Shown here one piece after another: positions 23,960 through 53,390 of a stretch of 64,000 nucleotides of DNA. The notes under the pieces are model-generated. The model was given only the letters and a program-made list of their open reading frames with translations. It did not search any database and was not told where the DNA came from. Position 1 is the stretch's first letter. The number at the start of each line of letters is the position of its first letter. This DNA is from Marinitoga sp. 1197 (GTDB taxonomy: Bacteria > Thermotogota > Thermotogae > Petrotogales > Petrotogaceae): positions 62,149-126,148 of the forward strand of contig NZ_AZAY01000048.1 in assembly GCF_001021165.1 (NCBI RefSeq), read 5' to 3'. The position numbers were made by a program, and so were the translations under genes.

Positions 23960-24156
23960 CGCTGTCTAAAAAGTCTAAAATGAAATGAAGGCTCGAAGAT
24001 TGCCCTTAAAATTATGAGTGTAAGCCGTCAAAAAAACAGGATGTTTTTTTGAGTGAAGCTTTTTCATGGATGAAAAATCGATGCGACGGCTGAGAATGAA
24101 TAATTTTAAGGATAAGCAATCAAGCTGCCTGAGTGAATTTGACTTTTTAAACAGCG
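23960..24156. repeat. Palindromic mobile-element-like repeat, copy 1
   Basis: About 197 bases bounded by inverted ends TGTCTAAAAAGTC (23963-23975) and its complement with one mismatch (24141-24153). Inside, paired segments nest toward the centre: AAGATTGCCCTTAAAATTAT against ATAATTTTAAGGATAAGCAAT, GCCGTC against GACGGC, and two small hairpins around CAAAAAAACAGG and AGCTTTTTCATGG. It closely matches the copies at 29950 and 53033. Flanks TATATTAAAAT and TATATTGAAAAT could be a decayed target duplication. A 66-codon open frame across it is not conserved in the other copies. Confidence 0.8.
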
Positions 24157-28574: not shown

Positions 28575-29168
28575 ATGAAAGAAGTAAAAATATCATTTGG
28601 TATTCATAATGAAGAGGAAAAGAATTATATAGTAACTTTACTATATAATACCTTTTATGAAAAATTTAAACCTGTTTTTTTAACTAAAACAAAATCTTTA
28701 AAATTACTCAAAAAATATATATTATTCGATAAAATTCTTATTTCAAGAGATGACAATAATAATATAATGGGAATAGCTGCTATAAAATATAAAGGTTTTT
28801 CATGGTTGAATTTAGAATTTATTGATATTTTAAAAGAATATAAATTTGAAACTTTAAAAGTCATCTTTAGAGGTATTTGTTTACTTAATACGCAAAAATG
28901 TGGAGAGTATTTATTATTAGATGATATTGTTGTTATTCCAGATAAAAGAGGTTTGGGTATCGGGACAAAAATCATATATTATTTGCTTGATTACGCTAAA
29001 AAGAAAAAATTAAAAGGAGTTAAATTATTTGTTATAAAAAAGAATATAAGAGCAAAACAACTTTATGAAAAATTAGGTTTTAAAACTATTAAATTTCATA
29101 AAATCCCACTATTATGGAAAAAATATTTTGATATAAATGGATTTTACGAGATGATACTTGATTTTTAA
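28575..29168 (+). CDS. GNAT-family N-acetyltransferase
   Basis: 197 residues. The acetyl-CoA binding motif is IVVIPDKRGLGIGTKIIYYLLDYAKKK (R-G-L-G-I-G core), followed by LFVIKKNIRAKQLYEKLGF, the standard GNAT motif B. The substrate is not indicated. GAGGTGA lies before the ATG at 28575. It overlaps the region upstream of the SanA-like gene and is co-transcribed with it. Confidence 0.85.
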   Translation: MKEVKISFGIHNEEEKNYIVTLLYNTFYEKFKPVFLTKTKSLKLLKKYILFDKILISRDDNNNIMGIAAIKYKGFSWLNLEFIDILKEYKFETLKVIFRGICLLNTQKCGEYLLLDDIVVIPDKRGLGIGTKIIYYLLDYAKKKKLKGVKLFVIKKNIRAKQLYEKLGFKTIKFHKIPLLWKKYFDINGFYEMILDF

Positions 29169-29181
29169 TGGAGGTAGTAAT

Positions 29182-29949
29182 ATGCTATGGATTAGAAAAA
29201 TCATTCAATCATTTATCGAATTGCCGGGCCTGTTTATTACTTTAATTATTTTATTAAATTTCAGAATAAAAAAATCGAAAAAATCAAATAAAATGATTAT
29301 ATTTACTTCTATAATAATTTATCTTTTTTCTATTCAAATAACCTCAAGAATATTAGTTTATCCTTTAGAAAATGCGTTTGAGCCATATAAAGAAAACAAA
29401 GTTAATATCCCTTCTATCATTGTAATTTTAGGTGGAGGAGCTATACCTAAAACACCTATTTCACCTTCTTTAGGTGAAATGTCAGATCAAGCCTTTAAAC
29501 GAATTTTTGCAGGCTATGAATTATATAAAAAAACAAATTACCCTATTGTTATTTCTGGCGGAAAACCACCAAATACAGATTATATTCCAGAGGCTTTAGT
29601 AATGAGAGATTATCTTGTTAGATTTGGTGTTAATCCCTCAAATATTTTTATCGAACCAGATGCACAAACAACCGAGGAAAATGCAAAATATGTAAAATCT
29701 TTAATTAATAATATGAAAATAAATAGAATATTTTTAGTTACTTCTGCTATTCATTTGCCAAGATCATACAAAATTTTTAAAAACTTTATTAATAGTAATA
29801 TCGAAATAGTTCCAGTTCCTTCAAATTATCTAATAACACGGGATAAAATTACATGGATAGATTTTAAACCTGATATAGATTCTTTACGAGCAAATGCTAT
29901 GGCAATACATGAATATCTGGGATTAATATTTTTTTCTATCTTAAAATAG
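29182..29949 (+). CDS. SanA/YdcF-like DUF218 membrane protein
   Basis: 255 residues. Two N-terminal membrane segments are followed by a DUF218 domain: SIIVILGGGAI, KRIFAGYELYKKTNYPIVISGG, EALVMRDYLVRFGVNPSNIFIEPDAQTT(E)EN and FLVTSAIHLPRS. DUF218 proteins such as SanA and ElyC act in envelope integrity. An upstream TTG is in frame but the ATG at 29182 has GGAGGT seven bases before it. The last codons (ATCTTAAAATAG) are duplicated at 30147-30158, on the far side of a mobile repeat. Confidence 0.85.
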   Translation: MLWIRKIIQSFIELPGLFITLIILLNFRIKKSKKSNKMIIFTSIIIYLFSIQITSRILVYPLENAFEPYKENKVNIPSIIVILGGGAIPKTPISPSLGEMSDQAFKRIFAGYELYKKTNYPIVISGGKPPNTDYIPEALVMRDYLVRFGVNPSNIFIEPDAQTTEENAKYVKSLINNMKINRIFLVTSAIHLPRSYKIFKNFINSNIEIVPVPSNYLITRDKITWIDFKPDIDSLRANAMAIHEYLGLIFFSILK

Positions 29950-30158
29950 GCTGTCTAAAAAGTCTCAAATGAAACGAAGGCTCGAAGATTGCCCTTAAAA
30001 TTATGAATGAAAGCCGTCAAAAAAACAGGACGTTTTTTTGAGTGAAGCTTTTTCATGGATGAAAAATCTGAACGACGGCTGAGAATGAATAATTTTAAGG
30101 ATTAGCAATCAAGCTGCCTGAGTGAATTGACTTTTTAGACATCGTAATCTTAAAATAG
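29938..30158. repeat. Palindromic mobile-element-like repeat, copy 2, with 12-bp target duplication
   Basis: The element spans 29950-30146 (197 bases). Its inverted ends TGTCTAAAAAGTC (29952-29964) and GACTTTTTAGACA (30129-30141) are perfect 13-mers. The flanking 12-mer ATCTTAAAATAG occurs at 29938-29949 and again at 30147-30158, the signature of transposition. The internal palindrome matches copies 1 and 3. The insertion sits just behind the stop codon of the SanA-like gene. Confidence 0.85.
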
Positions 30159-30182: not shown

Positions 30183-31307
30183 ATGAAATGTCATGGATGT
30201 GGGGTTGAAATACAAACAGAAAATCCGGAAATTCCTGGTTTCTTACCGGAACATGTTTATGAAAAGTTCATAGGCAATGAAGAAAAAGCTTTATGTCAAA
30301 GGTGTTTTAAATTAAAACATTATGGTGAACTAATTCCTGTTTCCATAAACAAAAATTTTTACAATCAATTAAAAAGTATTATCTATGAATTTGATACAGT
30401 TTTATGGGTTATCGATATTATTGATTTTGAAGGTACTTTTGATAAAGATATATTAAATTTAGTAAAAAATAAAAATCTATTTTTAATAATTAACAAAGTT
30501 GATCTATTGCCAAAAAGTGTAGCTTTTACTGAATTAAAAGACTGGATTTACGACAGGGTTAAAGACAATGTTAATATTAAAAAAGATAATATTCGCTTAA
30601 TAAGTGCGAAAAGGAATTTTGGTATAAATAGATTAATAAAGTTACTAAAAGAACAAAAGATAGAAAAAGCTCTTGTAGTTGGTACTACAAATGTCGGTAA
30701 ATCATCACTTTTAAATAACATGACTGATGTAAAAATTACAACAAGTTCATTTCCCGGAACTACATTAGGAATTGTTAAAAGAAAAATTATTAACCATAAT
30801 ATATACTTATATGATACTCCAGGAATAGAGACTAAACAAAGATTTACAGACTTTTTTGACATATATACTCAGGTGGAAATGATACCTCATAAAACTATTA
30901 GTAGAAAAACCTTTAAACCAGATATCGGTAAAGTTATATTTGTAAGTGCACTTTTCAGATTTAAAATTTTATCTTTAGCTAAAAATAGTTTGAAACCTAT
31001 TTTCTTGATATTTGCCCCAGAAAGAATATCTTTTCATCAAACCAAAGAGGAAAGAGTAGATGATTTATTAAAAAATCATATTGGGGAAATTATTTATCCT
31101 CCATATGAAAAAGACTATCCATTAAAAAATATTGATTATGAAAAAGAAATTATTTCAATTGAAGAAAATGAAGAATTAGCTATACCTGGGTTAGGTTGGA
31201 TTTCTGTAAGAAGAGGCCCTTTGAATATAGAGGTTGTTAAACCTAAAAATATTGAATTAATAATTAGAAAACCTTTAATTACACCAAAAAGAGGTAATAT
31301 TATATAG
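30183..31307 (+). CDS. yqeH: YqeH-type circularly permuted GTPase
   Basis: 374 residues. The N-terminal zinc knuckle has MKCHGCG and CQRCF (C-x2-C pairs). The GTPase motifs occur in permuted order: NKVDLLP (G4, about 102), ISAKR (G5), VVGTTNVGKSSLLN (G1, about 165), the G2 region TTSSFPGTT and DTPG (G3). The C-terminal third is the YqeH RNA-binding region. YqeH helps assemble the 30S subunit. GGAGGTGG precedes the ATG. It is followed by pduL after 14 bases. Confidence 0.92.
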   Translation: MKCHGCGVEIQTENPEIPGFLPEHVYEKFIGNEEKALCQRCFKLKHYGELIPVSINKNFYNQLKSIIYEFDTVLWVIDIIDFEGTFDKDILNLVKNKNLFLIINKVDLLPKSVAFTELKDWIYDRVKDNVNIKKDNIRLISAKRNFGINRLIKLLKEQKIEKALVVGTTNVGKSSLLNNMTDVKITTSSFPGTTLGIVKRKIINHNIYLYDTPGIETKQRFTDFFDIYTQVEMIPHKTISRKTFKPDIGKVIFVSALFRFKILSLAKNSLKPIFLIFAPERISFHQTKEERVDDLLKNHIGEIIYPPYEKDYPLKNIDYEKEIISIEENEELAIPGLGWISVRRGPLNIEVVKPKNIELIIRKPLITPKRGNII

Positions 31308-34169: not shown

Positions 34170-34208
34170 ATATGAGAAAGTTATCACTTGGATATAGGAG
34201 GTTATAAA

Positions 34209-36686
34209 ATGGAATTCGATCATAAAAATATAGAAGAAAAATGGCAAAAAAAATGGGCAGAAAAAAATATCTTTAAGACTTCACAAAGAAGCGATAAGAA
34301 AAAATATTACGTTTTGACAATGTTCCCATATCCATCTGGAACTATACACGTTGGTCATGTAAAAAATTATGTAATTGGCGATGTTGTTGCTAGATATAAA
34401 AAAATGCAGGGATTTAATGTTTTACATCCCTTTGGATATGACGCTTTTGGATTACCAGCAGAAAATGCTGCTATAAAAAATAATGTAAATCCTGGAGATT
34501 GGACTTTTAAAAATATTGAAATTATAAAAAAGCAAATTAAAAAGATTGGAATTAGTTATGATTGGGATAGAGAAATTGCAACATGTAAAGAAGATTATTA
34601 TAAATGGACCCAATGGATATTTTTGAAATTATATGAAAAAGGTTTAGCTTATAAAAAACATGCTGCTGTTAATTGGTGTCCAAGCTGTAAAACTGTTTTA
34701 GCCAATGAACAGGTTGTTAATGGAAAATGTGAAAGATGTGGTACAGAAATAGAAATGAAAAAGTTAGAACAATGGTATTTTAAAATAACAGATTATTCTG
34801 AAAAGTTATTAAATGATCTTGAAAAACTTGAGGGATGGCCTGAAAATGTTAAAATTATGCAAAAGAATTGGATTGGAAAAAGTGTAGGAGCTGAAGTTAA
34901 GTTTAAAATTGACGGTACAGAAAAAGAATTAACTGTTTTCACCACAAGACCGGATACTCTCTGGGGTGTAACTTTTATGGCTTTAGCTCCTGAATCTCCT
35001 ATTGTTGAAGAATTAACAACTCCAGAGCAAAAGAAAGAAGTAGAAGAATTTTTAAACAGAGTAACTAAAGAAGATAAATTTAAGAGAATTGCACAAGGTG
35101 CAAAGAAAGATGGGGCCTTTACAGGAAGTTATGCAATTAATCCAGTAAACGGAGAAAAAATACCTATTTATGTAGCTAATTATATTTTATTTGAGTATGG
35201 TACTGGAGCAATTATGGCTGTCCCTGCACATGACCAAAGAGATTTTGAATTTGCCAAAGAATTTAATTTGCCAATTAGAGTTGTTATTAAACCAGAAAAC
35301 AAAAATTTTCTCGAAGAAGATTTAACAGAAGCTTTTACCGATGATGGAATAATGGTAAATTCTAATAAATTTGATGGCATGAAAAATAGAGAAGCTTTGC
35401 CAAAAATTATTGATTGGCTTGAAAAAAATAATATAGGAAATAAAAGCATTCAATATAAATTAAGGGATTGGTTGATATCAAGACAAAGATACTGGGGAGC
35501 ACCAATACCTATAATTTATTGTGAAAAATGTGGAACTGTCCCTGTACCAGAAAAAGATTTACCCGTAAAACTTCCTACAAATGTTACTTTTGAGCCAACA
35601 GGAAAAAGCCCTTTAACTTATACCGATGAATTTATTAATACTACATGTCCAAAATGTGGAAGACCCGCAAAAAGAGAAGTTGATACAATGGATACATTCG
35701 TTGATAGTAGTTGGTATTATTTAAGATATATTAATCCTAAGATGAATGATAAGCCTTTTGATTCAGATGATGTAAATTACTGGCTTCCAGTTGACCAATA
35801 TATTGGTGGTGTTGAACATGCTATTTTGCATTTATTATATTCACGATTTATAACAAAAGTATTATATGACCTTGGGTATATTAATTTTGTTGAGCCATTC
35901 TCCAATCTATTTACTCAGGGAATGATATATAAAGATGGAGCAAAAATGTCAAAATCAAAAGGTAATGTTGTTTCTCCAGATGAAATGGTTGAAAAGTATG
36001 GAGCAGATACACTAAGATTATATATGCTATTTATGGGGCCACCAGAAAAAGATGCAGAATGGAATGATGCAGGTTTAGAAGGTATTGCTAGATTTATGAA
36101 TAAAGTATGGATTGCAATGTCTAAAATAATAGAAGTAACAAAAAATGTTGACACAAAAAATATGAAACTAAATACAAAAGAAGAAAAATCTTTAAGAAGA
36201 AAATTGCATCAAATGATTGGAAAAATAACAAATGATATAGAAAAGAATTTTCAATTTAATACTGCAATTAGTGGTATGATGGAATTAATTAATGAACTTA
36301 ATTCATATATAAATAATATCTCAAAAAAAGACTGGAATAAAGAATTATTAAAAGAAGTTGCAGAAGATTTTATTATTCTTTTATCTCCTTTTGCACCTCA
36401 TTTATCAGAAGAATTATGGCATATGATGGGCCATAATACATTTGTTGTCAATGCGAAATGGCCAGATGTAGACAAAAAAGCTCTAGAAGTTGATGAATTA
36501 GAAATTGTTGTTCAGATAAATGGTAAAGTAAGATCAAAAATAATAGTTGATGCAAATTCAACTGAAGAAATGATTAAAAATAAAGCATTTGAAGATGAAA
36601 AAGTAAAAAAATACATTGAAAATTCAGAGATAAAAAAGGTAATTCTTGTAAAAGGTAAATTGCTTAATATAGTGATTAAAAAGTGA
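34209..36686 (+). CDS. leuS: Leucyl-tRNA synthetase (leucine--tRNA ligase)
   Basis: 825 residues, a normal bacterial length. The class I HIGH box is PYPSGTIHVGH (about 41-51) and the KMSKS loop is AKMSKSKGNVV (about 578). Zinc knuckles appear as NWCPSCK with CERCG and again as CEKCGTVP and CPKCGRP. The CP1 editing domain has TTRPDTLWG. The C-terminal domain ending in VKGKLLNIVIK is complete. The start at 34209 is chosen because GGAGGTTATAAA precedes it; the upstream in-frame codon has none. Confidence 0.97.
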   Translation: MEFDHKNIEEKWQKKWAEKNIFKTSQRSDKKKYYVLTMFPYPSGTIHVGHVKNYVIGDVVARYKKMQGFNVLHPFGYDAFGLPAENAAIKNNVNPGDWTFKNIEIIKKQIKKIGISYDWDREIATCKEDYYKWTQWIFLKLYEKGLAYKKHAAVNWCPSCKTVLANEQVVNGKCERCGTEIEMKKLEQWYFKITDYSEKLLNDLEKLEGWPENVKIMQKNWIGKSVGAEVKFKIDGTEKELTVFTTRPDTLWGVTFMALAPESPIVEELTTPEQKKEVEEFLNRVTKEDKFKRIAQGAKKDGAFTGSYAINPVNGEKIPIYVANYILFEYGTGAIMAVPAHDQRDFEFAKEFNLPIRVVIKPENKNFLEEDLTEAFTDDGIMVNSNKFDGMKNREALPKIIDWLEKNNIGNKSIQYKLRDWLISRQRYWGAPIPIIYCEKCGTVPVPEKDLPVKLPTNVTFEPTGKSPLTYTDEFINTTCPKCGRPAKREVDTMDTFVDSSWYYLRYINPKMNDKPFDSDDVNYWLPVDQYIGGVEHAILHLLYSRFITKVLYDLGYINFVEPFSNLFTQGMIYKDGAKMSKSKGNVVSPDEMVEKYGADTLRLYMLFMGPPEKDAEWNDAGLEGIARFMNKVWIAMSKIIEVTKNVDTKNMKLNTKEEKSLRRKLHQMIGKITNDIEKNFQFNTAISGMMELINELNSYINNISKKDWNKELLKEVAEDFIILLSPFAPHLSEELWHMMGHNTFVVNAKWPDVDKKALEVDELEIVVQINGKVRSKIIVDANSTEEMIKNKAFEDEKVKKYIENSEIKKVILVKGKLLNIVIKK

Positions 36687-39843: not shown

Positions 39844-39859
39844 CTTTGAAATCACCCCT
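39609..39859 (+). repeat. Left direct repeat (xseB 3' part) flanking the RiPP island
   Basis: 251 bases matching 43995-44245 at a constant offset of 4386 without gaps. The three differences are at 39786 (G/A), 39843 (G/A) and 39844 (C/T). The repeat starts 26 bases inside xseB and ends 16 bases past its stop codon. Confidence 0.95.
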
Positions 39860-39978
39860 TCGTGTAAAATTGACCGACTTCATTTTACACTTTAGATTTT
39901 TATGAATAAAAATCTAAAGGAAAAAAGGTAATTTGCGAGTTATCGCTTCTCTTACTTTTTGGACATGTTATTAGACAT
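39860..39978. other. Left edge of the island with two hairpins and repeat-like sequence
   Basis: GTGTAAAAT/ATTTTACAC (39862-39890, loop of 11) is followed by a perfect 13-bp hairpin TTTAGATTTTTAT/ATAAAAATCTAAA (39891-39918). Either could terminate xseB transcription. At 39943-39958 ATCGCTTCTCTTAC resembles part of the insertion inside repeat copy 3 (near 53135). ACTTTTTGGACAT at 39955-39967 resembles the right end of the palindromic repeats. No gene is seen. Confidence 0.5.
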
Positions 39979-47885: not shown

Positions 47886-47904
47886 ATATTATACACCTAC
47901 CCCC

Positions 47905-47978
47905 TTTCCTATAGTCGAATGGTTTACGGCCATTCGGTAGAGACTTCCAGTCCATATTACTGGAATTATATAGGAAAA
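47905..47978 (-). ncRNA. Guanine riboswitch (purine aptamer)
   Basis: The minus strand shows the purine aptamer order: P1 strand TTTCCTATA, J1/2 ATTCCAGTAATATGG, J2/3 GTCTCTACC, P3 GAATGGCCGTAAACCATTC and closing GACTATAGGAAA. The C in GACTAT at the specificity position, rather than T, predicts guanine binding over adenine. With the terminator behind it, high guanine should stop transcription of guaA-guaB. Confidence 0.93.
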
Positions 47979-48004
47979 GTTTTTCATAGTATTAATTTTT
48001 ATGT

Positions 48005-53032: not shown

Positions 53033-53376
53033 ATTGTCTAAAAAGTCTAAAATGAAATGAAGGCTCGAAGATTGCCCTTAACACACCTACGGTGGGTTAT
53101 TGGATTAAAAATTGGATTTTAATAAAAAAAACTTTGAGCTATCGCTCTCTTACAGCGGGTATAAGATTAAAGATTTTTATTATATAATTATAAATCTTTT
53201 CCCCTTAGATTTTTTATCATAAAAAATCTAAGAGTGAATGAAAGCCGTCAAAAAAACAGGACGTTTTTTTGAGTGAAGCTTTTTCATGGATGAAAAATCG
53301 ATGCGACGGCTGAGAATGAATAATTTTAAGGATAAGCAATCAAGCTGCCTGAGTAAATTTGACTTTTTAGACATCG
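53033..53376. repeat. Palindromic mobile-element-like repeat, copy 3, with internal insertion
   Basis: Perfect inverted ends TGTCTAAAAAGTC (53035-53047) and GACTTTTTAGACA (53361-53373). The element matches copies 1 and 2 except that 149 bases (53082-53230) replace AATTAT in its left arm. The insert has a CACC-TAC-GGTG hairpin, a GAGC-TATC-GCTC motif, and an imperfect hairpin CTTAGATTTTTTAT/ATAAAAATCTAAG at its right end. Together with its flanks it fills the 462-base gene-free gap between the phosphoglucomutase and yraN genes. No clear target duplication is visible. Confidence 0.8.
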
Positions 53377-53390
53377 TATAAATTAAAATT

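Follow-up and report, generated by a model that had tools for sequence, protein, structure and literature searches.

A transposable element of Marinitoga among the many carriers of a TwoAYGGAY-like RNA with putative CsrA sites

The short palindromic element analyzed here is one of many vehicles that carry, in the genus Marinitoga, a TwoAYGGAY-like RNA bearing CsrA-type sites, the binding of CsrA itself being inferred. The element lies in a 64,000-nt stretch of the Marinitoga sp. 1197 genome (hereafter the window), and its interior is a conserved, covarying RNA structure that is also carried on other kinds of ends, a property missed by the original prediction, which was made from the letters of the window alone. 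We regard it as probable, albeit not established, that the element is a non-autonomous transposon (MITE) mobilized by an insertion sequence and loaded with a TwoAYGGAY-type, CsrA-binding-type RNA cargo whose loops capture CsrA; transposase action in trans, transcription, CsrA binding and any effect are inferences. With no binding or expression data at hand, it can be proposed only that these mobile elements might harbor a decoy for CsrA, a global regulator of their host.

A non-autonomous transposon between sanA and yqeH

The features of the element and its surroundings are the following:

29158..29949, + strand: upstream SanA-like gene (DUF218, PF02698), with its stop codon at the element junction
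29938..29946, no strand: left copy of the target duplication, ATCTTAAAA; the 12-bp repeat extends to 29949
29947..30146, + strand (RNA sense strand +): whole non-autonomous element (MITE), with family ends TANNNTGTCY and target duplications
29947..29964, + strand: left terminal inverted repeat, TAGGCTGTCTAAAAAGTC; 18-nt arms, 89% complementary
29973..30130, + strand: conserved structured core (covariance model R1, 185.2 bits)
30017..30041, + strand: apical hairpin 1, with loop CAGGACG at 30026-30032, a CsrA-type GGA lacking the first N of CANGGANG
30049..30066, + strand: apical hairpin 2, with loop CATGGATG at 30054-30061, an exact CANGGANG
30129..30146, - strand: right terminal inverted repeat; 18-nt arms, 89% complementary
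30147..30155, no strand: right copy of the target duplication, ATCTTAAAA; the 12-bp repeat extends to 30158
30183..31307, + strand: downstream yqeH-like GTPase gene, on the same strand as the element and sanA
23961..24153, + strand: second full copy of the family, 94% identical
53033..53378, + strand: third copy, of a longer variant whose left arm includes about 150 bp of a different palindromic sequence

The element measures 200 bp (29947-30146, + strand), has ends TANNNTGTCTAAAAAGTC and is placed between sanA and yqeH. The perfect 13-bp inverted ends that had been predicted were both located (13/13; TGTCTAAAAAGTC at 29952-29964 and GACTTTTTAGACA at 30129-30141), as was the direct repeat ATCTTAAAATAG on each side (29938-29949 and 30147-30158), which had been proposed as a 12-bp target duplication covering the end of the sanA-like gene and enclosing a 197-bp element. 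Over the whole family, the end consensus is TANNNTGTCY, and the commonest offset of end against direct repeat is 5/5. Since family ends start with TANNN, the duplication is most plausibly 9 bp long, with the TAG closing sanA being element sequence. Hence, the 12-bp repeat, which does reach 29949, is best divided into a target duplication of 9 bp (ATCTTAAAA) and the element's own TAG end, and the palindromic element, in itself real, is redrawn from the family ends as 200 bp. On this 9-bp reading, the stop codon of the sanA-like gene consists of the first three bases of the element. A check of open reading frames revealed none of note in the element, in agreement with its presumed lack of coding capacity, and no terminator-like site was detected within it, ruling out an intrinsic terminator.

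The identification of the element as a small, MITE-like transposon in need of another element's transposase is supported by genomic copies, target duplications, empty sites in relatives and an insertion sequence with matching ends. The genome of origin yields 49 blast matches to the element, and blast relatives are present in 6/6 other Marinitoga genomes and in none of 34 genomes outside the genus. The covariance model of the core, for which copy numbers per genome are lower bounds, matches at least 178 times across all seven Marinitoga genomes (at least 72, 40, 5, 26, 1, 33 and 1). Among copies with TGTCY-type ends, at least 35 of 54 are flanked by a direct repeat of 7 bp or more, as opposed to some 4% for mismatched flanks. 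This is a lower bound because some anchors are misplaced (e.g. L012, L031, L024 and L033), and the test omitted 62 of 116 copies with ends of another kind or unanchored. Empty sites, suggested earlier as a check, were also found: sanA is joined directly to yqeH, without the element, in five of the six other Marinitoga genomes (G001, G002, G003, G004 and G005), the sequence upstream at the corresponding place in the sixth (G006) being unrelated. Searches of plasmid and phage collections gave no match, and a plasmid or phage source was accordingly discarded. The matches from a pattern scan of public genomes include contigs of Marinitoga lauensis LG1; those in Halobacillus, Chitinophaga and Bacteroidia contigs are taken as chance.

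Several loci (L036, L040, L044, L065 and L145) contain elements nested within other copies of the superfamily. The longer, palindrome-bearing variant occurs in the window (53033-53378), elsewhere in the same genome (G000 C22:19852-20195, C14:37178-37468, C25:104407-104679 and C48:22998-23399) and in a relative (G005 C45:1517-1858); its extra sequence ends in a TTAGATTTTTTAT...AAAAAATCTAA hairpin and lies at about the same place of the left arm in several copies, which indicates that the variant has itself spread. The window also holds, at about 39850-39966, an eroded relative with the right end TACTTTTTGGACA of a second family of this genome and, at 47892-47993 (- strand), a Purine riboswitch (92.2 bits).

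The search for an insertion sequence sharing these ends, which had been put forward as a way to identify the transposase, led to a DDE_Tnp_1 partner, but the copies read are all either cut by contig ends or broken. Two loci of the same genome (G000 C50:1-638 and C1:67377-68104) combine a DDE_Tnp_1 transposase, related to that of the G001 copy, with an element-type end, and both reach contig ends, so that no intact partner could be read whole there. The copies in G001 (C64) and G003 (C11) have both ends spanned, but are broken; the former, of about 1.03 kb and with ends TAGAGTGTCCAAAAAGTA...GACTTTTTGGACACTCTA, shows no clear duplication by eye, and the latter has, also by eye, a near 10-bp duplication (AATTTATACA / AATTTGTACA). 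Since this DDE_Tnp_1 insertion sequence shares its ends with the element, the MITE reading stands. Only the Pfam DDE_Tnp_1 model passes its cut-off on the partner transposase; the scores of a 211-aa transposase fragment fall under every curated NCBIfam cut-off (39.4 bits against 130 for IS982, 31.7 against 140 for IS5 and 29.4 against 270 for IS1182), and the partner is therefore given no family name. Derivation of the element by simple internal deletion of its partner was ruled out, as blastn finds no match to its core at the G001 locus of that insertion sequence (L047). A multi-copy insertion sequence of another genus (G023 loci, including L072) presents overlapping frames of 126 and 211 aa, possibly encoding a transposase made by programmed frameshift.

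With genes called by a simple longest-frame rule and three duplicate rows skipped, none of 97 copies of the element falls inside a called reading frame. Copies in codirectional settings are found in sense (27) and antisense (35), and the remainder lie between divergent (28) or convergent (7) genes. This lack of strand bias relative to neighboring genes does not favor a cis-acting role of one strand, and a cis-regulatory role with strand preference was left aside as unsupported.

A structured RNA core on different ends

The long structured hairpin envisaged for the element is borne out by its predicted RNA fold (-67.9 kcal/mol), which is far more stable than those of shuffled sequences (mean -39.55 kcal/mol; z -7.7), none of 200 shuffles being as stable. 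Relatives of the element in other species have a common inside and different ends, and a covariance model of this core (R1) was built from 34 copies. In an alignment of 116 copies (113 distinct), 94.8% of 4880 base-pair cells are paired, 38 of the 44 pairs show double-sided changes, and the cells with such changes number 974, where shuffles give 284 and slid partners 181 at most. This alignment (A2) was fitted to R1 and leans to its structure, and the 34 copies behind the model largely recur in it.

The two apical loops behave differently from the stems. In a table of 34 clusters at 85% identity, from which three clusters without a usable hairpin 1 and one without a usable hairpin 2 were excluded in the respective columns, the C, A, G, G, A and G of hairpin 1 are invariant in all 31 clusters having the hairpin. 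The position after CA can be T, C, A or absent, that after GGA can be T or C, and the stems vary (AAAAAAA, AAAATTA, AAAATCA, AATTTTG, AAAATCC). Hairpin 2 keeps its GGA in 27 of 33 clusters and has lost it in one subfamily (a cluster of 16), which reads CACGATG. Of the 113 distinct copies, 111 contain the motif CA(n)GGAnG one or more times and 87 contain it twice (5.8% and 0.09%, respectively, in shuffles), and it is absent from the reverse strand of all 113. In minimum-energy folds, 176 of 204 motifs present their GGA as unpaired bases of an apical loop, and the spacing in copies with two sites is 27-29 nt in 85 of 90. The loop table, the motif counts and the folds thus all place CANGGANG in apical loops; apical hexaloops of this form are high-affinity targets of CsrA/RsmE according to the accessible part of PMC4894983. 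In the window copy, one loop is an exact AYGGAY (AUGGAU) and the other reads AGGAC.

This arrangement resembles TwoAYGGAY (Rfam RF01731, clan CL00106), which, as far as the consulted portion of PMC2864571 goes, was found in 2010 in the human gut, gamma-Proteobacteria and Clostridiales. A search limited to the window element, with permissive filters, gave an RF01731 match at 29980-30117 of 46.1 bits (gathering score 43); this match was missing from an Rfam scan of the entire window at default settings. A search of eight loci gave four matches on three loci at or above 43 bits (52.2, 50.6, 48.2 and 45.1) and four further matches at 32.5-42.4 bits. Under a stricter phylum-wide search, most copies of the genus fall below the gathering score or go unlisted, RF01731 being detected in five of 103 Thermotogota genomes, all of them Marinitoga, and in none of 14 control genomes. 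The pair of hairpins with AYGGAY-type loops is supported by the loop table of the 34 clusters. The two tandem G-A motifs in one stem described in the accessible text of PMC4333381 are canonical on both sides in only 18 of the 34.

The shared core is older than its ends. Outside Marinitoga, R1 gives six weak matches in one other genus (G010), and 30 additional genomes of the order yield nothing; with stricter filters, the core model finds nothing in the other 95 of 103 Thermotogota. The six G010 copies differ in sequence over most of the stem, and the three that were folded have the shape and the two loops of the Marinitoga core. Within Marinitoga, inspection of flanks by eye reveals ends of TGTCY types, GATTGAGAAAAATAAAAAC, AGTTGGAAAAAATAAAAGC, ATTGGAATTCAAAAATAAAAC and CAGACTGTTGACAAA, among others. 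For the CAGACTGTTGACAAA type, 13 of 14 copies lie between direct repeats of 16-32 bp, mostly palindromic, terminator-like sequences, and mismatched flanks never score as high as these 13. Elements of this type (G004 and G003; L144-L153, L155, L162, L176, L178 and L180) adjoin palindromes resembling intrinsic terminators that are duplicated on both sides, as if insertion copied the terminator of the host gene. Several of them have a promoter-like end (TTGACA...AATAAT) directed into the RNA strand. Nothing comparable was seen in TGTCY-type copies, and no convincing promoter for the RNA strand was found in the window element's own family. A search for an autonomous partner of the terminator-duplicating ends returned only isolated sites, no two of which face each other at the distance expected of an insertion sequence. 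In G000 C2 (at about 34170-34260; L048 at about 585-680), the arms of a GTGGC...GCCAC palindrome contain a short CAGTTTGTCGACAAA...TTTGCCTACAAACTG inverted repeat, which is perhaps a remnant of the terminator-type vehicle.

CsrA as the putative reader of the loops

CsrA is encoded in all seven Marinitoga genomes, an identification accompanied by a match to solved CsrA chains. The same search was positive in Thermotoga maritima and two other controls, CsrA being thus not special to Marinitoga. In the genome of the window (L128:1429-2645), the gene for CsrA lies directly 3' of one encoding a 326-aa protein with two FliW domains.

The scenario that best accommodates these data starts with the DDE_Tnp_1 transposase of the ~1-kb insertion sequence with the same ends, which would act in trans on the element and generate the 9-bp target duplication. 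Ends, copies, duplications and the partner insertion sequence document mobility; the trans-action is deduced from them. The cargo would consist of a long irregular stem topped by two neighboring apical hairpins, with CA(n)GGAnG loops about 28 nt apart. The window copy would presumably be transcribed in sense together with a sanA-yqeH operon, and the two loops of the folded transcript could then capture CsrA, an inference that leans on the observed conservation of fold and loops. As a putative outcome, CsrA would be drawn off its targets, or the host transcript would be marked for CsrA.

A broader version of this proposal, which we advance only tentatively, is that a CsrA decoy is the only cargo of Marinitoga transposons, the two-site RNA module having been acquired by several vehicles, one of which inserts beside intrinsic terminators, doubling them, and supplies a promoter in sense.

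The element could instead be an ordinary MITE with no RNA function, its inside a mere long palindrome whose self-complementarity is maintained by template switching or by a preference of transposition for hairpin-forming DNA. Palindromes are common in MITEs, and neither a strand bias with respect to genes nor a family promoter is there to contradict this reading. However, palindrome correction matches arms and not loops, whereas the loops are fixed here and the stems vary. Moreover, the motif is confined to one orientation (111 versus 0 of 113), the same core sits on several kinds of ends with two modes of duplication, and a sequence-divergent element of another genus retains the same two loops. 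An ordinary MITE thus seems unlikely.

That the loops and stem are read by something other than CsrA (a transposase, some component of the ribosome or an unidentified RNA-binding protein), their likeness to CsrA sites being convergence, is also rather improbable in our judgment, for the fixed and free loop positions over 34 clusters coincide with those of CANGGANG, and no Marinitoga genome lacks CsrA. Such a reader would nevertheless be compatible with the unproven ligand of RF01731, for which CsrA binding is predicted and termed a hypothesis in the accessible text of PMC4333381, and with a spacing that, in 85 of the 90 copies with two sites, is 27-29 nt, instead of the 18 nt that the available part of PMC4894983 gives as optimal for a CsrA dimer.

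That the element is a fixed structure of the sanA-yqeH junction, used by the host for cis-regulation or mRNA processing, a reading to which its sense placement between two codirectional genes might point, is largely refuted and scarcely tenable, because five of six relatives lack the element at the locus, other copies lie in any orientation and the window element shows features of recent insertion.

Should the decoy reading prove true, up to about 70 copies per genome could retune the Csr/FliW network of the host, with its control of motility and metabolism; alternatively, CsrA might be recruited to silence the transcripts of the elements themselves. A transposon may thereby be exploiting the global post-transcriptional regulator of its host by means of an RNA and not a protein, and the finding bears on CsrA control in bacteria that use FliW.

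Comparison with known systems

TwoAYGGAY, an orphan RNA family since 2010 with a partner that is only predicted, resembles the Marinitoga core in its long stem bearing two neighboring hairpins, each with an AYGGAY-type loop. Mobility goes unmentioned in the passages of its literature that were consulted, whereas the Marinitoga RNA, in Thermotogota, forms the core of transposable elements present in many copies, a large number of which do not reach the RF01731 gathering score. Searches of open-licence PMC papers turned up no mobile element described as bearing a TwoAYGGAY-like RNA, and a mobile core in many copies supplies abundant natural variants for tests of CsrA binding.

CsrA sponges of the CsrB / RsmZ type likewise present several GGA hairpins per RNA and are proposed to sequester CsrA; the Marinitoga RNA, in contrast, has only two sites, dozens of genomic copies and no dedicated gene, and its expression has not been shown. 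The flaA leader of Campylobacter jejuni, another bacterium with FliW, titrates CsrA through two GGA in adjacent apical loops, as described in the consulted section of PMC4894983, but it is a single mRNA leader with a spacing of 21 nt according to that same section, as opposed to a mobile repeat with 27-29 nt. Bacterial MITEs, of which MITEAba12 is an example (PMC6382973), are also short and non-coding, with inverted repeats, target duplications and ends shared with insertion sequences; the Marinitoga core differs in being conserved independently of its ends and in bearing RNA loops that resemble protein sites. Finally, mobile elements with protein-type Rsm homologues are known, as in the case of the plasmid-borne RsmQ (PMC9928087, from the portion accessible to us). 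Both the plasmid bearing RsmQ and the Marinitoga element would represent mobile elements possibly acting on the Csr/Rsm network of their host, but the plasmid would do so through a protein homologue of CsrA, whereas the Marinitoga element would supply an RNA ligand.
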